From: an uncultured Opitutia bacterium
GTDB lineage: Bacteria > Verrucomicrobiota > Verrucomicrobiia > Opitutales > Opitutaceae
Direction: 5' to 3'
DNA: 42,278 nucleotides
Assembly: GCA_903872505.1 (NCBI GenBank)
Contig: CAIQKV010000090.1
Coordinates: forward strand, 1 to 42,278
Shown here: positions 4,026 through 29,187 of the stretch, one piece after another
How positions within the stretch are numbered: position 1 is the stretch's first letter
Layout: each line of letters begins with the position of its first letter
The notes under the pieces: generated by a model
The model's database searches: none
Told to the model about the DNA's origin: nothing
What the model saw: only the letters and a program-made list of their open reading frames with translations
Program-made: the position numbers and the translations under genes

Positions 4026-4164
4026 GGGGAGGGTGCAAGCGATGCCCACCCGCCGGTCCGCGACAACATCAAACCGTCCGGCCGGCGGCGCCGGGCACCC
4101 GGCGCCCGGGCCGCGGCATGAATCTGCCTTGGCTTGCCTCCCGCCGCCGGCTATGCCGTTGGCC

Positions 4165-5163
4165 ATGGACAACCCCGCCCTGCCCCCCGTCCAGCCCACC
4201 TACCAGGATCGCCGCACCGGCCTCATTGTCTTCGGCGTCTTTGCCATCCTGATCGGCGCCTGCTGCGCCCTGCTCGTGCCCCTGGCCTTCTTCGGGCAGA
4301 TGATGGCGGCCCGGCAACTGGGCACGGACTTTGACACGTCCGCCGCCGTGATCAGTGCGGCGGTCTACGGCCTGATGGCGGTCGTGCTGATCTGGCTGGG
4401 AGTGGGCTCCGTGCTCGCCAAGCGCTGGGCGCGGGCGCTCCTCCTCTGCCTGGGCTGGATCGGGCTGATCATCGGCCTGGTGGCGATGCCCGCCGTGTTC
4501 CTGGCGATGAACTCGATCGGCGCCACCCTGCGGGCCCAGGGCCAGACCCTGCCCCCGGGCGCGCTGGTGATGGTCAAGGTGGTGGCGATCGCGACCACGT
4601 TCGTGATCTACATCGTGATCCCCGGCATCGCGGTGCTGTTCTACCGCAGCCCGCATGTGCGCCGGACCTGCGAGGCGCGGGACCCCGTCGAGCGCTGGAC
4701 CGACCGCTGCCCCCTGCCCGTGCTGGCGCTCTGCCTGCTGAAGGTGTTCGCCGCGGCGATCCTGCTGGCCATCCTGCCCACCTATGGCCGGGTGTTTCCG
4801 CTCGCCGGCATCGTGCTGCAGGGCTGGCCGGCCCGGGTGCTCTGGCTCGCGATGGCCGCCTTCCTGGTCTACGCGGCCCGGGGATTCTACCGGCTCGATC
4901 TGCGCACGTGGTGGATCTACACGGTCGGCACCCTGGTGCTGTGGAGCTCGTCGCTGCTGACCTTCCAGCGCATCGGCCTGATTGATTTCTACCGGCAGAT
5001 GGGCCTGCCCCAGCGGCAGCTGGAGCTGATGGAACACAATCCCATGCTCCGCAACGGCTCGATCCTGTGGCTCAGCCTCCTGAGCATGGTGATCTGGCTC
5101 GGCTACCTGCTCTACGTGCGGCGTTTTTTCCGCGCGCCTACAGATCGCCCTGCTGCGGCCTGA
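4165..5163 (+). CDS. Polytopic membrane protein of unknown function
   Basis: I do not recognise the family. The chosen ATG (4165) gives 332 residues; another ATG four codons upstream (4153) is equally possible. There are about eight hydrophobic helices, in two blocks of four: the first block has segments such as GLIVFGVFAILIGACCALLV, VYGLMAVVLIWLGVGSVLA and LLLCLGWIGLIIGLVAMPAV, and the second block is similar. Between them is a polar loop, CEARDPVERWTDRCPLPV, with two Cys. The C-terminus is basic (YVRRFFRAPTDR). The last 26 bases overlap the 3' end of the convergent SDR gene. It is an inner-membrane protein by composition only. Confidence 0.8.
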   Translation: MDNPALPPVQPTYQDRRTGLIVFGVFAILIGACCALLVPLAFFGQMMAARQLGTDFDTSAAVISAAVYGLMAVVLIWLGVGSVLAKRWARALLLCLGWIGLIIGLVAMPAVFLAMNSIGATLRAQGQTLPPGALVMVKVVAIATTFVIYIVIPGIAVLFYRSPHVRRTCEARDPVERWTDRCPLPVLALCLLKVFAAAILLAILPTYGRVFPLAGIVLQGWPARVLWLAMAAFLVYAARGFYRLDLRTWWIYTVGTLVLWSSSLLTFQRIGLIDFYRQMGLPQRQLELMEHNPMLRNGSILWLSLLSMVIWLGYLLYVRRFFRAPTDRPAAA

Positions 5164-5848
5164 GGACGATCTCCTCCACGACCGTGCGCCGCGACAGCCG
5201 GTAAATGTCCAGGAACGCGCGCGCCACGTCCGCCGCCGGCATCATCCGAGCCGCCGGCACGCCGCTGCCCCGCCACGAGGGCGAGAACGTCGCGCCCGGA
5301 TGGACGCAGCACACCCGCACGCCCCAGTCCTTCAGCTCGGCGCGCATGACCTTCGACAGGCCGGTCACGCCGAATTTGGCCGCGCTGTAGCCCGCGCCGC
5401 CCGGATAGGCGATGAGCCCGGCGATCGAGCTCATGTTGAACACGTCGCCGCGGCGGCGACGCGCCATCGCCGGCACGAAGGCCCGCGACACCAGGAACAC
5501 GCTGCGAAGGTTCACCGCGATCATCCGGTCGAAATCCGCCACGCGCATCTTCGTGAACGGCGCGGCGGTGAACTTGCCGGCATTGTTGATCAGCACGTCG
5601 ACCGCCCCGAAGCGCCGCTGCACGCCCCGCGCCATCGCCGCGACCGAGGCCTCGTCGGCCACGTCGCAGGCAAACGCCTCCGCGGTGGCGCCGAGCTTCA
5701 CACAGGCGCGGGCCACGGTGCCGAGGTTCCGCGCATTGCGCGCCACCAGCGCCAGCCGCACGCCGGGGATGGCCCGCGCAAAGACGCGGGCGAGCGCGGC
5801 GCCAATCCCCTGCGAGGCGCCGGTGATAAGGACAACAGGTTTGCTCAT
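5138..5848 (-). CDS. SDR-family reductase, sepiapterin-reductase-like
   Basis: This classical short-chain dehydrogenase/reductase has 236 residues. It has the TGASQGIG cofactor loop (9-16), NNAG (88-91), Ser140/141 and the YSAAK active site (Tyr154, Lys158). The C-terminal region reads PGATFSPSW ... MMP ... RTVVEEIVLRPQQGDL. That pattern closely follows the Chlorobium sepiapterin reductase as I recall it (PGAVYTPMW, MMP, RTVVEEIILRP). It is the last gene of an operon, only 13 bases after folE2 and downstream of a PTPS-type gene. A role in the last reduction steps to tetrahydrobiopterin is therefore attractive. That role is inference, since many SDRs share the general C-terminal motif. Confidence 0.85.
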   Translation of the reverse strand: MSKPVVLITGASQGIGAALARVFARAIPGVRLALVARNARNLGTVARACVKLGATAEAFACDVADEASVAAMARGVQRRFGAVDVLINNAGKFTAAPFTKMRVADFDRMIAVNLRSVFLVSRAFVPAMARRRRGDVFNMSSIAGLIAYPGGAGYSAAKFGVTGLSKVMRAELKDWGVRVCCVHPGATFSPSWRGSGVPAARMMPAADVARAFLDIYRLSRRTVVEEIVLRPQQGDL

Positions 5849-5861
5849 GGGCGTGGGATGA

Positions 5862-6839
5862 TCAGCACAGCAGCGAGCCGAAGTCCATGAAGTCGGCGGC
5901 GAAGCCGCCCTTCACGCCCTTGCAGATCACGCTCACGGCGTCGTGCGAGTGCAGCGACTCGAGGTGCGAGCACGCGATCTGGAAGTCCCGGATGCGCGGG
6001 TCGGCGTTGAACTCGCGATAGAGCAGCCGCGCGGCGTCCTCGACAAACTTCAGGTGCGCGCCGTTGAGCTCGGCAAAGGCTTGCTCGTCCTCGCGCTTCA
6101 CCATCACCTGCGTCTCCGTCTGGAGCGCGTTGAGGCAGTGGGCGTGCACGTCCTCGATCCAGATTTTCCTGCCCTCGGCCTCCTCGATGGTGATGCGCGC
6201 CTTGCTGCGCTGCGAATGCGGCACGGTGTAGGCGCCGCGCCGGTCGCGCGCGTGCTCGGCCAGCTCGGCGGAGCACGGGCAGGCCGACGAGTAGACGAAA
6301 TCGAAATGGATGAAGCGGCGGTAGTGGCCGGCGTGGGTCATGACCCCCTCGAACGCGACGTCGTAGTACTGCCAGCCCGCCAGCCCGCTGCGCAGGCTCG
6401 GCCGGAGCATCGGGTACGAAAACGCCACCTTCAGGCGGGCGTCCTTGCTGTCCACCTTGCGGAGGTAGGCCTTGAGGATCTTGCCCATCCACTCGCCGGT
6501 GATGATCCCGTCCTTGTGGTCATAGAACGAGCGCATGATGCGGCTCATGTTGATGCCCTTGAGTTCGGCCTGCAGCGAGACGGTGCCGGTGACGCTGGTC
6601 TCGAGCGTGAGCTTCCGGCCGGTCTTGGTGCGGTAGTTGAGCGGCAGGCGGAAATTATGGATGCCGACCTGCTGGATCGGCACGCGGGAGCCCCGGATGG
6701 CGGTGAGCGATGCCTCCATCATGTCGGGCAGCGTGGCCCGGTATGCGGCCGTCGCCTGGAACTTGGCGTCGTAGGCGTGCCGGATGCGCGCGGGGGTTCC
6801 ATCCGCGGAGCGGTGGAGATACATCGGTTTTTTCTTCAT
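5862..6839 (-). CDS. folE2: GTP cyclohydrolase FolE2
   Basis: This 325-residue FolE2-type (COG1469) GTP cyclohydrolase I converts GTP to 7,8-dihydroneopterin triphosphate, the first step to folate and biopterin. FolE2 is unrelated in sequence to FolE and does not strictly need zinc. The diagnostic ACPCS block is at 186-190, with [10 protein letters not shown] near 58-66 and [11 protein letters not shown] near the C-terminus. The protein is slightly longer than many homologues, through the N-terminus. It sits between a PTPS-family gene (84-base gap) and an SDR gene (13-base gap), all on the minus strand, which points to pterin-cofactor synthesis. No Zur-type operator was recognised upstream. 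Confidence 0.92.
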
Positions 6840-6923
6840 GTCGTTTTTGGGCGTTTCAAACGGCCAGGCGGTTGGGACGATAACCGTAGTCCCGCCAGAG
6901 CGGGATTAGCTGGCACGGGAGAG

Positions 6924-7403
6924 TCAGGTGGCGTCCGGTCCGTGGTACTCGGCAAAGTTGCGCGGGGTTTCGTAGAGCCGCACGCAATGCAGCCGGCCGG
7001 TCTTGATGTGCGGCGCGATCTCGTTCCAGAACGCGATGACCAGGTTCTCGGTGGAAGGAATGATGCCGCGCAAAAACGGGACCTCCTCGTTCAGGTTCCG
7101 GTGGTCGCAGCGGTCCACCACCGCCCGGTGCAGGATCCGTTTCAGCTCGCCCAGGTCGATCAGGTAGCCGGTCACGGGATCGGGCGTCCCCTGCACCGTG
7201 ACCTCGAGGACATAGTTGTGCCCGTGCCAGTGCGGATTGGTGCAGAGCCCGTATTGCTTCTGGTTCCACGCCAGGCTGCGCGTCGGGTTGTAGAGCCGGT
7301 GCGCCGAGTTGAAATGCACCTGCCGGGTGATGCAGACGGTGCCCGTCAGCACGCGCGGGGCGCGGGCGGCGGGGGCTTGGCGGCGGGCAGGCGAGGCGGA
7401 CAT
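6924..7403 (-). CDS. 6-pyruvoyl-tetrahydropterin synthase-type protein
   Basis: This is a 159-residue PTPS/QueD-superfamily enzyme. Zinc ligands are His35 (FNSAHRL), His60 and His62 (HGH). The catalytic Cys54 is five residues before HGH (CTNPHWHGHNY); Asp100-His101 and the pterin-binding Glu145 (YETPRN) are present. QueD (queuosine pathway) normally has three residues between the Cys and HGH, whereas animal PTPS has five. The stretches DPVTGYLIDL, DHRNLNEEVP and STENLVI also match animal PTPS closely. I therefore favour conversion of dihydroneopterin triphosphate to 6-pyruvoyl-tetrahydropterin rather than QueD activity. As first gene of the operon with folE2 and an SDR, it probably carries the promoter in the 137-base divergent gap before the MBL gene. 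Confidence 0.88.
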   Translation of the reverse strand: MSASPARRQAPAARAPRVLTGTVCITRQVHFNSAHRLYNPTRSLAWNQKQYGLCTNPHWHGHNYVLEVTVQGTPDPVTGYLIDLGELKRILHRAVVDRCDHRNLNEEVPFLRGIIPSTENLVIAFWNEIAPHIKTGRLHCVRLYETPRNFAEYHGPDAT

Positions 7404-7540: not shown

Positions 7541-8344
7541 ATGGCCATGCGGTTTTGCATCCTCGGCAGCGGCAGCTCGGGCAACAGCGCCCTGCTGCAG
7601 ACCGGGGGGGCGCGCGTGCTGGTGGACGCGGGCTTCTCGGCGCGGAAACTGGCCGCGCTCCTCACGGCCGCCGGCGAGTCGCTCGACCGGATCGACGCCA
7701 TCTTTCTCACCCACGAGCACGGCGACCATGCCGCCGGCATCGAGGGGTTGAAAAAGCACCCCCATATCCGGGTCTTCGCCAATGCCGCCACCGCGCGCGC
7801 CGTGCAGGCCGGCCTCAGCCACCGGCCGGACTGGCAGATCTTCGAGACCGGCGCCCGCTTCCGCTTCCGCGACCTCGAGGTGGAAAGTTTCACCGTGCCG
7901 CACGACGCCCAGGAGCCGGTCGGGTTCCGCTTCACCGCCGGCCTGGAGGGCGACCTGTTCGCGCCGCGGCGCTCGCTGGCGTTCTTGTCCGACCTCGGCC
8001 ATGCGCCGCAGCACATCCAGGAGCACATTCGCGAATGCGAGGTGCTGGTGGTCGAGGCCAACCACTGCCCCGAGCTGCTCAAGGCCGATCCCAAGCGGCC
8101 TTGGGCCACCAAGCAGCGCATCGCCGGCCGGCACGGCCATCTCTCCAACGACGGGGTGCGCGAGCTGCTGGCGGCCGTGGCCAGCCCGCGCTGGCGGCGG
8201 GTCTACCTCACGCACCTCTCGCGCGACTGCAATTCCCCCGCGGCGGTCGAGCGCGCGCTCGCCGGCGTGCGCCTGACCCTGACCGCGTGCGACTTCGCGA
8301 TCGTCGGACCCGGCGAGGGCACGCCGTTCTACGAACTGGGGTAA
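7541..8344 (+). CDS. MBL-fold metallo-hydrolase, YycJ/WalJ-like
   Basis: This metallo-beta-lactamase-fold protein of 267 residues has the start MAMRFCILGSGSSGNSALL; the second Met (7547) is an equally good start. It has the THEHGDHAAG metal motif near residue 50, an SDLGH motif (about 150), HGHLSND and a late LTHLSRDCNS. This pattern belongs to the YycJ/WalJ group of putative nucleic-acid phosphodiesterases or exonucleases. The exact substrate is unknown. It is divergent from the pterin operon and convergent with the MFS gene that ends 19 bases downstream. A near-copy of its final codons lies at 9806-9838. Confidence 0.87.
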   Translation: MAMRFCILGSGSSGNSALLQTGGARVLVDAGFSARKLAALLTAAGESLDRIDAIFLTHEHGDHAAGIEGLKKHPHIRVFANAATARAVQAGLSHRPDWQIFETGARFRFRDLEVESFTVPHDAQEPVGFRFTAGLEGDLFAPRRSLAFLSDLGHAPQHIQEHIRECEVLVVEANHCPELLKADPKRPWATKQRIAGRHGHLSNDGVRELLAAVASPRWRRVYLTHLSRDCNSPAAVERALAGVRLTLTACDFAIVGPGEGTPFYELG

Positions 8345-8362
8345 CGCGCGGACCCGCCGCGT

Positions 8363-9715
8363 TCAGTGCGTGTGGCCCTTTTTCAGGCTCCGCCGGTGCG
8401 CAATGGAATACATCAGTAACCCGCCCAGCAGGCCGAACGGCACCTGGTAATAGAAATAGTAGTCCCACCCGTAGTGGTCGAGCACCCAGCCGAGGCCCTT
8501 GATGGCGAGCGCGGCGCCAAAATATTGAAACGAGTCGATGATCCCGGAGGCGAACGCGGCCATCTTGCGGCCGCCGATGTCCATCGCCGCCGCCGGCCCG
8601 AGCAGCGAGTGCGTGGAGTTCACGGTGAAGGCAATCAGCACGAAAAACACCAGGGCCCAGTTGACCGACGTCACCTGCGCGGCGGCGAACGTGACGCCGA
8701 CCTGCGTGAAGTAGATGATGGCCGCGACCGGGGCGCGCCGCGCCTGGAAAAACCGGTCCGAGATCCACCCGGAGAGCAGCGAGCCGGCCGACGCGGCGAA
8801 CGGGATCAGGAAGCCGAGCCACTGGAATTTCGCGCCCGTCATCGCAAGGTGATGCACCTCCTCAAAATAGCGGGGGAACCACTGGTCGATGCTCTGGCGC
8901 ACGGCGCCGGTGGTCGCATACGCCACCGCCATGATCCAGACGATCGGGTTGCTCACGATGATCCGGAAGACCGTCCAGATCTCCGCCTTCGTCTCGTGAT
9001 CGGCGTGATCCGCCTCGCCCGGAAACGCTTGGTGGAAGCCGCACTCCTCCGGCGTGTCCTGCACGAACACCGCGAGCAGCACCGCCACGAGCGCGGCAAT
9101 CCCCGCGGGAATCCAGAACAGCCAGCGCCAGTGCTGCGGCGGCACCGACCACATCCCGAGGAACACAAAGCCGGCGAGGAGCGACGGGAGCAGATTGTTC
9201 GCGAGCAGCCGGCCCAGGTTGATCATGCACCCGAAAATCCCCGCGAAGGTGCCGCGCTCCCGTTCGCTGAACCACGCGCTGTTGATCTTGATGAACCCGG
9301 GCGCCCCGAACGCCTGCATGTAGCCATTGATGCCCCACAGCAGGGCGAAGAGCCACAGCAGGCCCCAAAACGACGCCGCCCCAAACGCGAGGCTCATCGT
9401 GACCGTGCCGGCCGCGCCGATCAGCATCGCGCGCTTGCCGCCGATCCGGTCGGTGAGGAGGCCGTTGATGATCTGGCCGCACCCATAGGCGACGAACTGG
9501 CACGACAGGATCGTGCTGATGTCGCCCTTCGAAAAATGAAACTCGTCGCTGATCGACTTGTTCGCGTAGGAAAAATTATACCGGCACAGGTAAAAGCTGG
9601 TGTAGGTGAGGCCGACGACCGCCCAGTTCAACCCGCGGCGGGCCCGGAAGCCAGGGGGCAGCTTTGGCTGGGCAGCCTTGTTGTCCTGCGGGGCGACGGA
9701 CGAAGCACTCATCAT
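8363..9715 (-). CDS. OPA-family MFS transporter (GlpT/UhpT-like)
   Basis: This 12-TM major-facilitator protein of 450 residues belongs to the organophosphate:phosphate antiporter group. The N-terminal half shows the family pattern FYLCRYNFSYANKSI followed by GLLTDRIGGKRAMLIG. The centre reads QDTPEECGF and the C-terminal half GAAAMDIGGRKMAAFASG. OPA carriers exchange sugar phosphates or glycerol-3-phosphate for phosphate, but the substrate here is undefined. A paralogue lies directly upstream on the same strand, 107 bases away. The start is a double ATG at 9715/9712. No partner sensor (UhpB/UhpC type) is encoded nearby. Confidence 0.88.
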   Translation of the reverse strand: MMSASSVAPQDNKAAQPKLPPGFRARRGLNWAVVGLTYTSFYLCRYNFSYANKSISDEFHFSKGDISTILSCQFVAYGCGQIINGLLTDRIGGKRAMLIGAAGTVTMSLAFGAASFWGLLWLFALLWGINGYMQAFGAPGFIKINSAWFSERERGTFAGIFGCMINLGRLLANNLLPSLLAGFVFLGMWSVPPQHWRWLFWIPAGIAALVAVLLAVFVQDTPEECGFHQAFPGEADHADHETKAEIWTVFRIIVSNPIVWIMAVAYATTGAVRQSIDQWFPRYFEEVHHLAMTGAKFQWLGFLIPFAASAGSLLSGWISDRFFQARRAPVAAIIYFTQVGVTFAAAQVTSVNWALVFFVLIAFTVNSTHSLLGPAAAMDIGGRKMAAFASGIIDSFQYFGAALAIKGLGWVLDHYGWDYYFYYQVPFGLLGGLLMYSIAHRRSLKKGHTH

Positions 9716-13009: not shown

Positions 13010-13933
13010 ATGACCGGCAAGGAACGATTCCAAAAAACGCTGCGGTTCGAAACGCCGGACCGGCCGCCGCATTTTGAGGCCATGTTTGAGCTGGAACGGG
13101 AGGCGTTCGGGTTGCAGTTCCCCGACCGGAACGACTGGGGGACCGACCGGGACCGCAAGATCGCGACGTGCATCGAGATCTACCAGCGCATCGTGGAGCG
13201 ATACCAGTGGGACGCCCTGGCCGTGTACTGGCCGTGGGGCGATCCCGCGGGCGTGCGCGCCGCCGCGCGCGCGTTCGGCGGGCAAATTGCCATCGGCGGC
13301 ATCGTCGGCGCCGGGTTGTGGTGCATCGACCAGATCGACGACTGGGAACAGTTCGCCACCGACCTGGCGGAACGCCGCGACCTGATCCACGCCGAGGCCG
13401 AGCGCCGTTGCCAGGATGCCTGCGGGCGGATTGACCGGCTGGTGGAGGCCGGGGCGGACTTCATCTACCTGCCCCACGACGTGGCCTTCAACGGCGGCAC
13501 CTTCTGCTCGCCGGCCGACTTCCGGGAGATCGTCACGCCGTATCTGGCGCGGCTGGTCGCGCGCGTGAAGCAGCGCGGCGCCCTCGCGTTCTTTCACAGC
13601 GACGGCAACCTCATGTCCGTGCTCGACCAGATCCTGGCCTGCGAGCCGCACGCGCTCCAGTCGCTGGACCCGATGGCCGGCATGGACCTGGCCGTGGTCA
13701 AGCGGCTCACCTACGGCCGGATGGCATTGATGGGCAATGTGCAATGCAACCTGCTGCAGGATGGCCCGCGGGAGGCGATCCGCCGGTCGGCCCGGTATTG
13801 CCTCGAGCACGGCAGCCCGGGTGGCGGCTACATCTTCTCCACCTCCAACACGATCTTCCCCGGCATGCCGCTCGAGAACTACGAGTACATGCTCGAGGTT
13901 TTCCGGGAGTTTTGCCGCGAAGCGCCGCGTTGA
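13010..13933 (+). CDS. Uroporphyrinogen decarboxylase-family protein
   Basis: The 307-residue protein has a URO-D/CmuA-like TIM barrel. It starts with the family opening MTGKERFQKTLRFETPDRPP. Further motifs are DFIYLPHDVAFNGGTFCSP, FFHSDGNLMSVLDQI and MGNVQCNLLQDGP, and near the end GGYIFSTSNTIFPGMPLENY. The position where corrinoid methyltransferases have a zinc-binding HxCG reads HSDG, so it probably does not use that zinc site. True haem-pathway HemE is unlikely because the conserved N-terminal RQAGR type motif is absent. Substrate is unknown. It lies 28 bases after pyk on the same strand, possibly transcribed with it, and is followed by a copy of the pyk tail. Confidence 0.82.
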   Translation: MTGKERFQKTLRFETPDRPPHFEAMFELEREAFGLQFPDRNDWGTDRDRKIATCIEIYQRIVERYQWDALAVYWPWGDPAGVRAAARAFGGQIAIGGIVGAGLWCIDQIDDWEQFATDLAERRDLIHAEAERRCQDACGRIDRLVEAGADFIYLPHDVAFNGGTFCSPADFREIVTPYLARLVARVKQRGALAFFHSDGNLMSVLDQILACEPHALQSLDPMAGMDLAVVKRLTYGRMALMGNVQCNLLQDGPREAIRRSARYCLEHGSPGGGYIFSTSNTIFPGMPLENYEYMLEVFREFCREAPR

Positions 13934-26582: not shown

Positions 26583-28028
26583 ATGAGCAGCACCGGCCCC
26601 ATCCCCGTCACCGTCCTCACCGGCTTCCTCGGCGCGGGCAAGACCACCCTCCTCAACCGCATCCTCACCGAGTCGCACGGCCTCAAGCTCGCCGTCATCG
26701 AGAACGAGTTCGGTGAGGTCGGCGTGGACAACCAGCTCGTCATCTCCAGCGACGAGGAGCTGTTCGAGATGAACAACGGCTGCATCTGCTGCACCGTGCG
26801 CGGCGACCTCATCCGCATCCTCGGCCGGCTGATGAAGCGCAAGGACCGGCTCGACGGCATCCTGATCGAGACCACCGGCCTCGCCAACCCCGCCCCCGTC
26901 GCGCAGACGTTCTTCACCGACGACGAGATGAAGCAGAACTTCCGGCTCGATGCCATCGTCACCGTCGTCGACGCCAAGCACATCCTCACCCACCTCGACG
27001 CCGCCGACGAGTCCGTGAAGCAGGTCGCGTTCGCCGATGTCATCCTGCTGAACAAGACCGACCTCGTCGCCCCCGGCGACCTCGACGACCTGGAGGAGCG
27101 CATCCACCGCATCAACGCCGTGGCGAAGATCCACCGCGCGCGGAACTGCGACGTGCCGCTTGACCGCGTGCTCAACGTCGGCGGCTTCAACCTCGGCCGC
27201 GCCACCGAGCTCGACCCGCAGTTCCTCGAGCCCGAGTACCCCTTCGAGTGGGCCGGCGCCTACACGCTGCCCGCCGGCATGCATGAGCTCGTCATCGGCC
27301 ACGCCGACGAGATGCACGGCCATTCGCACGAGGGTCATGAGCATGGGCATGACCACGAGGGTCATGACCACGACCACGGCGAGGACGGCCACCACCATCA
27401 CCACCACGGCAATCCCAACGAGCTCGATGTCGTCATCCTCCCGGTGAAGTCGCTGGACGAAGCCGACCTCGCCGCCGCCCGCGAGTCCGCCGTGCGCGTC
27501 TTCGCCGACTGGGAGACGCGGCTCCGGGACGGCGATCCCGTCCTCCCCGGCGCCACGCTCCAACGCCTGCTGCTCACCGACGGCAACGGCAAGTTTCCGC
27601 TTCCGGTCAAGGCGCCCGGCCTCCACCTCGTGTTCGAGTCGTGCGGCCACGACCCGCTGCACATCCAGGTCAAGGGCGAGACCGTGAAGCCCGGCTGGCA
27701 GCAGGATTTCCACGCCGCGCACACCCACAATGACGCCGTGACCTCCGTCGGCATCCGCACGCCCGGCGACCTCGACGGCAAGCGGCTCAACGACTGGATC
27801 AGCGAGCTGCTCCGCGTGAAGGGCGGCGACATCTACCGCATGAAGGGCGTCCTCAGCGTCAAGGGCACGACCAAGCGCCTCGTATTCCAGGGCGTGCACA
27901 TGCTGTTCGACGCGAAGTTCGACCGCGAATGGGGCGCCGAGCCGCGCACCAACACGCTCGTCTTCATCGGCAAGAACCTCGACCGCGCCGCCCTGACCGC
28001 GGCCTTCTCGGCCTGCCTCGCGACCTGA
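26583..28028 (+). CDS. CobW/COG0523-family GTPase with His-rich insert
   Basis: The 481-residue protein is a putative metal chaperone or metal-insertion GTPase. Walker A is GFLGAGKTT (14-22), the metal-binding GCICC motif is at 66-70 (the family CxCC), Walker B is in the IETTGLANP region, and the base-recognition NKTD is near 155. A very His-rich linker at about 240-278 (HGHSHEGHEHGHDHEGHDHD and then HHHHHHG) leads into a further beta-rich segment. The CobW C-terminal domain begins near GGDIYRMKGVLSVKG. Family members act in zinc homeostasis, cobalamin synthesis or nitrile hydratase maturation. The location next to an MFS carrier and ABC genes favours zinc or a related divalent metal. Confidence 0.93.
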   Translation: MSSTGPIPVTVLTGFLGAGKTTLLNRILTESHGLKLAVIENEFGEVGVDNQLVISSDEELFEMNNGCICCTVRGDLIRILGRLMKRKDRLDGILIETTGLANPAPVAQTFFTDDEMKQNFRLDAIVTVVDAKHILTHLDAADESVKQVAFADVILLNKTDLVAPGDLDDLEERIHRINAVAKIHRARNCDVPLDRVLNVGGFNLGRATELDPQFLEPEYPFEWAGAYTLPAGMHELVIGHADEMHGHSHEGHEHGHDHEGHDHDHGEDGHHHHHHGNPNELDVVILPVKSLDEADLAAARESAVRVFADWETRLRDGDPVLPGATLQRLLLTDGNGKFPLPVKAPGLHLVFESCGHDPLHIQVKGETVKPGWQQDFHAAHTHNDAVTSVGIRTPGDLDGKRLNDWISELLRVKGGDIYRMKGVLSVKGTTKRLVFQGVHMLFDAKFDREWGAEPRTNTLVFIGKNLDRAALTAAFSACLAT

Positions 28029-28038
28029 GGCCGCGCGC

Positions 28039-29187
28039 TCAGTACACGCCGTAGCGGTCCACCAGCTCGCGCAGCAGCGCCACGTTGGCCGCCGGCGTAT
28101 CGGGGGCGATCGCGCAGGCCGTGCTCAGGATGAAACCGCGCGCCGTCATGCCGATCTCCAGCCGCCGGATCACGTCGGCGCGGATCTGGGCCGGCGTGCC
28201 CTGCAGCAGCACGTGCACCGGGTCGATGTTGCCCTTGATGAAGGCGCGGTCGCCGATCCGCCGCACCGCGTCGGCCAGCTCCACGTTGCCCAGCGGCGGC
28301 GGGTCGAGGCACTCGATGCCGTCGAACCCGGTGTCGATGATCGCCTCCAGCCGGTCGCCGATCGCGCCGCAGGTGTGGCAGTAGCTCGGCACGCCCCCCG
28401 CGCGGGCCGCCGCCACCAGCACCGCCTGGGCCGGCGCGACCAGGTCGCGGTACAGCTGGGGCGAGATAAAATTCTGCCCGACCCACGGCGCCGAGACGTT
28501 GAGCGCATCCGCCCCGGCCGCGATCTGCTCGCGGGCATGGCCGGCCACCGCGGCGGCGTACTTCGCCAGCAGCGCGCGGCATTTCTTCGGCTCGGTCAGT
28601 AGCGCGACCATCGCGCCATCCGCGCCGAGCGCGTCGATCAGGTAATCCTCCGGGGAGTAAAGCGAGCCGTGCACGGACACGTCCGGGCCGACGATCGCCC
28701 GCGCCTGGGTCAGCTCGGCCACGCGGCCGGCCGCGCCCTCCGCCAGTTGCATGCGCAGCCGCGTCGAGGGCGGGTGGTAGCTGAGCTGGTCCGCGATCGC
28801 GGCCGGGTCGAGGTCGCCGATGTCGCGCTCCGGCGGCGCGACGTGGGTGTAGCGCGGCAGGTCGTTGCGGCAGTAGAGGCACGAGTCGCCGTTGCGAAAA
28901 TGGACCACCGGGCCCTCGGGATTCGTCCGGTCGATGCGCTGCACCGTGCGCTCGTCGAGCGGCGCGGCGCCCACCGCCGGGATCAGCACGCCGTCGAAGC
29001 CGAAGCGCCGGCCGATCTCGCAGAACCCGCGGGCAAACGCGCCGCCGTGGTTGTGCCACACGTCGATCGGGTCCAGCTCCGGCATCTGCCGCAGCACGAA
29101 CCCCAGCGCCGGCTGGCACATCACCGGCACGCGGTCGGGCCGTTCCAGGCGCATGGCGGCGGCGAGGCGGGTGCGGGAAGTGTGCAT
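28039..29187 (-). CDS. URO-D/MtaA-like protein with Zn-type HxCG motif
   Basis: The 382-residue URO-D-family protein starts at ATG 29187 (MHTSRTRLAAAMRLERPDRV). The frame stays open upstream without family similarity. Motifs are VGQNFISPQLYRDLVAP, then SYCHTCGAIGDRLEAI, where HTCG matches the zinc-binding H-x-C-G of corrinoid methyltransferases such as MtaA. GIECLDPPP, IKGNIDPV and RGFILSTAC follow, the last being a possible third zinc ligand. This would be consistent with methyl transfer between a corrinoid protein and a thiol, but no corrinoid protein is encoded in the window. The promoter region carries an 18-bp palindrome overlapping the start codon. It is divergent from the 1440-residue protein gene. 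Confidence 0.82.
   Translation of the reverse strand: MHTSRTRLAAAMRLERPDRVPVMCQPALGFVLRQMPELDPIDVWHNHGGAFARGFCEIGRRFGFDGVLIPAVGAAPLDERTVQRIDRTNPEGPVVHFRNGDSCLYCRNDLPRYTHVAPPERDIGDLDPAAIADQLSYHPPSTRLRMQLAEGAAGRVAELTQARAIVGPDVSVHGSLYSPEDYLIDALGADGAMVALLTEPKKCRALLAKYAAAVAGHAREQIAAGADALNVSAPWVGQNFISPQLYRDLVAPAQAVLVAAARAGGVPSYCHTCGAIGDRLEAIIDTGFDGIECLDPPPLGNVELADAVRRIGDRAFIKGNIDPVHVLLQGTPAQIRADVIRRLEIGMTARGFILSTACAIAPDTPAANVALLRELVDRYGVY

Follow-up and report, generated by a model that had tools for sequence, protein, structure and literature searches.

The locus described here raises the question of whether the synthesis of tetrahydrobiopterin, a cofactor familiar chiefly from animals, can start from the type IB GTP cyclohydrolase FolE2 in place of FolE. 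The locus lies on a contig of 42,278 nucleotides from an uncultured Opitutia bacterium of the Opitutaceae (CAIQKV010000090.1, assembly GCA_903872505.1), the whole of which was analysed and is referred to below as the window. It comprises three consecutive genes on the minus strand, encoding a 6-pyruvoyl-tetrahydropterin synthase (PTPS), FolE2 and a short-chain dehydrogenase/reductase (SDR) that resembles the sepiapterin reductase of Chlorobium tepidum. We consider it likely, from the sequences of the three genes and their conservation in relatives, that they form an operon for making a tetrahydrobiopterin from GTP.

PTPS-II enzymes, in combination with sepiapterin reductase, are known in bacteria and, according to a review (PMC5041015), about 50 proteins of COG0720 are predicted to act in tetrahydrobiopterin synthesis. 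The same source distinguishes the types of PTPS by short signatures, of which CX5HGH marks PTPS-II, CX3HGH marks QueD and ExxHGH marks PTPS-III. In the present work, we use these signatures together with profile searches, phylogeny, structure comparison and a survey of related genomes to examine what the operon is likely to make, and whether its PTPS may also serve the synthesis of queuosine.

Results

Layout and conservation of the operon

The genes of the locus and the gaps between them, from the first gene to the third, are:

6924..7403, minus strand: PTPS, predicted to be of the PTPS-II type, first gene (open reading frame, 159 aa from the ATG at 7403)
6840..6923, minus strand: gap between PTPS and FolE2, 84 bases
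5862..6839, minus strand: FolE2, type IB GTP cyclohydrolase, second gene (open reading frame, 325 aa)
5849..5861, minus strand: gap between FolE2 and SDR, 13 bases
5138..5848, minus strand: sepiapterin-reductase-like SDR, Chlorobium type, third gene (open reading frame, 236 aa)

These open reading frames bear out the arrangement claimed in the initial annotation, with the three genes in order on one strand and separated by 84 and 13 bases. A GTG at codon 18 of the PTPS gene (about position 7352) is a possible alternative start, because conservation within the family sets in near there, and the last 26 bases at the 3' end of the SDR gene are shared with a predicted gene that runs towards it at 4153-5163. 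All three proteins match Pfam families (PTPS, 3.9e-34; FolE2, 4.4e-71; adh_short for the SDR, 8.2e-54) and all three genes are under purifying selection, with non-synonymous rates (dN) of 0.063-0.176, synonymous rates (dS) of 0.39-0.79 and dN/dS ratios of about 0.16-0.26 in comparison with two genomes of the same genus. The order PTPS-FolE2-SDR recurs in relatives, and the three genes are a real, conserved operon.

The extent of this conservation was examined in a family sample of 61 genomes, made up of that of the window (G000) and 60 drawn from a larger group; the Fisher tests given below for these genomes ignore kinship. From the labels of named relatives we infer that the sampled family is the Opitutaceae. 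A PTPS-family protein is matched in 56 of the 61 genomes, with 80 matches in total, and the stretches around all 80 were examined. The CX5HGH signature is found at 44 loci in 42 genomes (two loci each in G028 and G031), the other 36 PTPS being of the CX3HGH type. FolE2 adjoins the CX5HGH PTPS on the same strand at every one of the 44 loci, and at 37 of them a same-strand SDR match lies within about 3 kb, one of these matches (L065, in G047) being a piece of 49 residues. A similar picture emerges from the best 80 named relatives, mostly labelled as Opitutaceae, Opitutae or Opitutus metagenome-assembled genomes: FolE2 lies downstream of PTPS in 79, the remaining one being cut by a contig end, and the SDR is present in 62 and missing from 10 of the 67 that have room for it.

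Counted by genome, the SDR is present in 38 of the 42 with PTPS-II, a figure that takes in G047 with its 49-residue piece only, as well as G022 and G029, where the SDR lies elsewhere in the genome. A search of 18 genomes for SDR orthologues at E<=1e-50 was positive in five of the ten with PTPS-II and found none in the eight genomes searched from the 19 that are without PTPS-II. When the phylum was scanned with the PTPS profile at 1e-15, 25 of 288 genomes matched, 21 of them in the family; the matches outside it, judged by profile alone, consist of a strong one in G302 (1.0e-71) and three weak ones.

The PTPS protein

The spacing of five residues between Cys54 and His60, to which the initial annotation had drawn attention, is present as C54-T-N-P-H-W followed by His60-Gly-His62; the sequence is thus CX5HGH, and the QueD signature CxxxHGH is not found in it, five residues separating the Cys from HGH. 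C54, H60, H62, D100, H101 and E145 are invariant in an alignment of 35 rows, with H35 conserved in 90% or more, and we take H60, H62, C54, D100, H101, E145 and H35 to have zinc-binding and catalytic roles. Searches of the Protein Data Bank (PDB) with the single sequence return mammalian PTPS 1b66 (1.5e-31), human PTPS 3i2b (4.6e-31) and C. elegans PTPS (1.6e-23), with weaker matches to P. aeruginosa 2oba (2.1e-10) and E. coli QueD (1.5e-8), and a profile built from 35 relatives scores mammalian PTPS at 143.9 bits against 51 for 2oba and 40 for E. coli QueD.

In a tree of 85 rows, the 44 CX5HGH PTPS and three animal PTPS form one group with support of 100/98, although the bootstrap values had yet to converge and a warning about long branches joining one another was issued. 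Outside this branch lie the 36 CX3HGH rows and the two reference rows, 2oba and E. coli QueD, and the clustering with QueD that had been named as evidence to the contrary is therefore absent. The predicted model of the protein (predicted local distance difference test score, pLDDT, 86.5, weak over the first 20 residues) retrieves human PTPS first by E-value in Foldseek, with a query-normalised template modelling (TM) score of 0.70 against 0.62-0.65 for QueD. These comparisons support the assignment of the operon PTPS to the PTPS-II type, a subfamily of COG0720.

FolE2 and the folate genes

The second protein scores 284.3 bits with the NCBIfam FolE2 model NF010200, for which the cut-off is 215. 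In an alignment with the FolE2 chain 3d2o, its SACPCS, HSQRS and ESLHSH stretches fall opposite CPCS, HNQRS and ESIHNH, and the Cys and His residues of these stretches presumably have roles in the metal site. FolE is matched in 3 of the 61 family genomes, in two of them above the cut-off, and that of the window is not among them; the use of FolE2 in place of FolE, which had been expected to be unusual, is real and is the norm for the family.

FolB and FolK have no match in the genome of the window or in the two same-genus genomes, and are matched in 34 and 35 of the 61 genomes, respectively. Their presence is concordant in 60 of the 61, and both are missing from 26. Because the two are missing in the genus of the window and in these 26 genomes, repeated loss of folate synthesis in the family is suggested, and with no match to FolE, FolB or FolK a folate role for FolE2 is unlikely in the genome of the window.

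At two loci, L041 and L082, the FolE2 beside PTPS is matched as two pieces, which may be due to a frameshift or an assembly error. The window that contains FolE2 also holds, at 26583-28028, an open reading frame that we take from its translation to be a CobW/COG0523-like G3E GTPase. CobW/COG0523-like genes are often linked to zinc limitation, as is FolE2 in some other bacteria.

The SDR protein

With the single SDR sequence, the best PDB matches are 3rkr (2.9e-38) and C. tepidum sepiapterin reductase 2bd0 (3.9e-38), which are about equal; of this pair, 2bd0 alone aligns to the last residue of the SDR. The C-terminal resemblance to the Chlorobium enzyme proposed in the initial annotation is genuine (RTVVEEIVLRPQQGDL in the SDR, RTVVEEIILRPTSGDI in Chlorobium). 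A profile of 32 relatives places 2bd0 first of 429 matched PDB sequences at 196.8 bits, with the next chain at 165.6, and in a Foldseek search with the SDR model (pLDDT 92.3) it is again at rank 1, with a TM of 0.93 and about 35% identity. S141, Y154 and K158 are noted in the SDR, and W192, which is invariant in 32 rows, aligns with W196 of the Chlorobium enzyme. Trp-196 and Phe-99 of that enzyme are required to bind substrate, according to a review (PMC7520308).

The SDR is over no NCBIfam cut-off among the 25 best of 216 matched families. A FabG-type SDR, the affinity that had been named as a refutation, is disfavoured: the family profile puts 2bd0 ahead of the FabG-named chains, those called 3-oxoacyl-ACP (acyl carrier protein) reductase scoring at least 55 bits lower, and most such chains among those listed align only to about SDR residue 190, the putative 3tfo reaching 231. 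We limit the claim for the SDR to a predicted function in the manner of Chlorobium sepiapterin reductase.

Hydroxylase, dehydratase and associated genes

Aromatic hydroxylases of family PF00351 are found in 8 of the 61 genomes, both same-genus genomes included, and all eight have PTPS-II and SDR, the SDR of G047 being its 49-residue piece. Carbinolamine dehydratase (PF01329) is found in 36 genomes, that of the window included. It tracks PTPS-II, which is present in 34 of the 36 (Fisher 2.4e-7), and occurs in 32 of the 38 genomes in which both PTPS-II and the SDR were counted.

The 4-hydroxyphenylpyruvate dioxygenase HPPD is found in 8 of the 61 genomes, that of the window not among them, and adjoins the hydroxylase in G015. 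The two do not always occur together, G059 and G033 having the hydroxylase without HPPD and G012 and G057 having HPPD without the hydroxylase. Since HPPD does not track the hydroxylase strictly, its absence is weak evidence that an assembly gap lies behind a missing hydroxylase. Near the PF00351 hydroxylase at L139, L141, L142 and L143 lie genes that we take to be HPPD-like and homogentisate-dioxygenase-like; at L140, from the same genus, no HPPD is near the hydroxylase.

Queuosine genes

A genome search for QueC and QueE, recommended in the initial annotation, finds both in the genome of the window, side by side at 8160-8861 and 8880-9572 of L133. They are on contig C74; the operon PTPS, on C90, is not adjacent to them and is the sole PTPS match in the genome. 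In the family, QueC is matched in 58 of 61 genomes at E<=0.001, all 58 above the low cut-off of the family. It was counted in 54, after four genomes with only weak matches of 4.0e-5 to 4.1e-4 (G002, G051, G053 and G055) were dropped, G056 being kept on two partial matches (5.7e-15 and 7.7e-12). QueE is found in 53 genomes at 1e-10, six of the matches being weak (3.9e-15 to 7.4e-13) and each of these lying near a CX3HGH PTPS.

PTPS-II is the only PTPS in 20 genomes, 19 of which have QueC and 18 both QueC and QueE. The CX3HGH type alone is found in 14 genomes, all with QueC and QueE, and the two types occur together in 22, of which 21 have QueC and QueE. The five genomes with no PTPS, one of them 67% complete, are all counted without QueC and QueE, weak QueC matches having been dropped in three.

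G020, a single contig of about 6.1 Mb, has QueC and, as its sole PTPS, PTPS-II, with no QueE relative at 1e-10. A separate observation concerns a lineage of CX3HGH PTPS with the motif CRFPHGH (L084 and others), which lies away from QueC by coordinates; genes that we take to be SufU- and SufS-like fall into clusters of nine loci, L084 among them.

Neighbouring genes

By appearance, the frequent neighbours of the operon encode a metallo-beta-lactamase-fold protein and a pyruvate kinase, and no oxygenase was recognised beside it; both statements are drawn from the first residues of the 40 most widespread neighbour clusters, read by eye without a family scan. In six relatives (L039, L043, L046, L058, L061 and L067) a short gene (84-124 codons), presumably GxxExxY-like, follows FolE2 and precedes the SDR wherever an SDR exists. 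Elsewhere in the window, the open reading frames at 13010-13933 and 28039-29187 are, as we read their translations, presumably both uroporphyrinogen-decarboxylase-like.

Discussion

In the pathway that we propose, FolE2 would convert GTP to 7,8-dihydroneopterin triphosphate, PTPS-II would turn this into 6-pyruvoyl-tetrahydropterin and the sepiapterin-reductase-like SDR, with NADPH, would reduce the side-chain carbonyls to give a tetrahydrobiopterin. The product may be the L-threo isomer, as made by Chlorobium, because C. tepidum is stated to contain L-threo-tetrahydrobiopterin (PMC5683033). The reading of the operon as one for tetrahydrobiopterin, first put forward in the initial annotation, is supported at the level of sequence, and neither of the two refuting results named there, a grouping of the PTPS with QueD or of the SDR with FabG, was obtained.

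A number of results weigh against this pathway. Among the NCBIfam models, the PTPS scores too low for both that of the PTPS/QueD subfamily (80.1 bits against a cut-off of 125.5) and that of QueD (62.9 bits against 89.25), and in Foldseek the target-normalised TM is higher for QueD chains (0.82-0.89) than for human PTPS (0.80), so that the fold alone does not decide the type of PTPS. For the SDR, the single sequence places 3rkr, an SDR with no role assigned, marginally above 2bd0, and the column of Chlorobium Phe-99 is occupied by Ala95, with Phe93 nearby. No SDR orthologue is found at E<=1e-50 in the PTPS-II genomes G001, G007, G044 and G050, nor in G047, which was counted on its 49-residue piece alone. 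The absence of a tetrahydrobiopterin-dependent hydroxylase, already remarked on for the window, holds also for its genome (94.78% complete) when searched for PF00351, and the product would therefore be without a known user there. Of the 38 genomes credited with both PTPS-II and the SDR, 30 likewise lack PF00351 and eight have it; the link between hydroxylase and PTPS-II, at 8 of 8, is statistically weak (Fisher 0.049), and carbinolamine dehydratase is missing in 8 of the 42 PTPS-II genomes.

The distribution of the queuosine genes suggests that the PTPS may have a second role, in which, besides acting with the SDR in tetrahydrobiopterin synthesis, it would provide 6-carboxytetrahydropterin for QueE and QueC in genomes without a CX3HGH QueD. 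This would extend the tetrahydrobiopterin pathway and does not exclude it, and we regard the arguments for and against it as evenly balanced. Among QueC-positive genomes, a CX3HGH QueD is missing in 19 of the 40 with PTPS-II and in none of the 14 without (Fisher 0.0009), which points to PTPS-II as a probable additional source of the queuosine precursor; for the genome of the window, too, a queuosine role is probable given its sole PTPS despite adjacent QueC and QueE. QueC and QueE are kept together in 18 of the 20 PTPS-II-only genomes and counted in none of the five that are PTPS-free. The four genomes named first above (G001, G007, G044 and G050, of which G001 and G050 are one genus) hold PTPS-II and FolE2 and have neither an SDR orthologue nor a CX3HGH QueD, and the presence of QueD changes at least 12 times on a rapidly built 39-row tree of FolE2, made without a shuffled null. 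An assembly gap is an unlikely cause of the missing QueD, as this PTPS is also the only one in the two genomes of the same genus, which are 100% and 97% complete, and in the one-contig relatives G020 and G049. That PTPS-II also performs the QueD step is the simplest reading of these genomes. The CX3HGH motif is, however, absent from this PTPS and its gene lies away from queC and queE; a QueD from another family could supply the step; and no residue separates the PTPS-II of genomes with QueD from that of genomes without (195 tests, lowest p 0.003).

Two observations would also fit a PTPS that is only a QueD, fed by FolE2 for queuosine, with the SDR unrelated in role: it is the sole PTPS of the window's genome, which has QueC and QueE, and four genomes combine PTPS-II and FolE2 with no SDR orthologue. 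This reading we find improbable, since a CX3HGH PTPS is also present in 22 of the 42 PTPS-II genomes, and G055 (94% complete) and G022 (86%) have PTPS-II and SDR and are counted without QueC and QueE, that of G055 after a weak QueC match of 4.1e-4 was dropped; moreover, the PTPS groups with animal PTPS and the SDR is near it at 37 of 44 loci. It is scarcely credible that FolE2 and PTPS work in the synthesis of folate, with PTPS standing in for FolB in the manner of PTPS-III. FolB is indeed unmatched in the genome of the window, but so is FolK, the two agreeing in 60 of 61 genomes, and the ExxHGH motif is absent, C54-T-N-P-H-W before HGH having no Glu; a PTPS-III role was rejected on the motif and the missing FolK.

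Returning to the tetrahydrobiopterin pathway, its truth would mean that tetrahydrobiopterin can start from FolE2 instead of FolE, in a family-wide operon, and would sharpen the question of whether one CX5HGH enzyme serves both tetrahydrobiopterin and queuosine. The family is a place to seek a new bacterial use of tetrahydrobiopterin, and is worth searching for one because PF00351 was not found in 30 of its 38 genomes with PTPS and SDR. A broader and rather doubtful conjecture would combine these points: one FolE2-PTPS pair might feed both pathways, the animal-type PTPS-II having repeatedly replaced QueD in one bacterial family, and most of these bacteria might make a tetrahydrobiopterin, recycled by carbinolamine dehydratase, for some enzyme or role other than aromatic hydroxylation.

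Comparison with known systems

In the literature searched by title and the start of the abstract, which covered few subscription journals, no FolE2-PTPS-II-SDR operon is described, and a PTPS-I/II double function is not named in the portions of the sources examined. The context of FolE2 beside PTPS-II may already be drawn in figure 3 of PMC5041015, the legend of which names FolE2. A neighbourhood study (PMC5445326) places FolE (PF01227) near PTPS-II and FolE2 near PTPS-IV, and links FolE2 to PF00925, a different Pfam family from that matched by the FolE2 of this operon.

Judged by its sequences, the operon is best read as an uncommon variant of known tetrahydrobiopterin chemistry, built on FolE2. 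With the PTPS-II/sepiapterin reductase route of animals, and with the Synechococcus PTPS-II as described in PMC5041015, it shares CX5HGH, the active-site residues, the type of SDR and the start from GTP; it departs from that route in opening with FolE2 instead of FolE and in having its three genes in one operon. The Chlorobium sepiapterin reductase 2bd0 leads both the profile and the fold comparisons with the SDR, matching it from end to end, the C-terminus and Trp-196 included; it differs in Phe-99, which is not in the aligned SDR column, and in an identity of only about 35%. QueD (PTPS-I) belongs to the same superfamily, and the genome of the window has QueC and QueE with no other PTPS match, yet the PTPS here has CX5HGH, falls in a separate tree group and is encoded on a different contig from queC/queE. 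The PTPS-I/III hybrids, which PMC5041015 assigns to queuosine and folate, resemble the present proposal in that a single T-fold enzyme acts in two pathways, but the other pathway would in this case be that of tetrahydrobiopterin, and the PTPS here carries only the PTPS-II motif.

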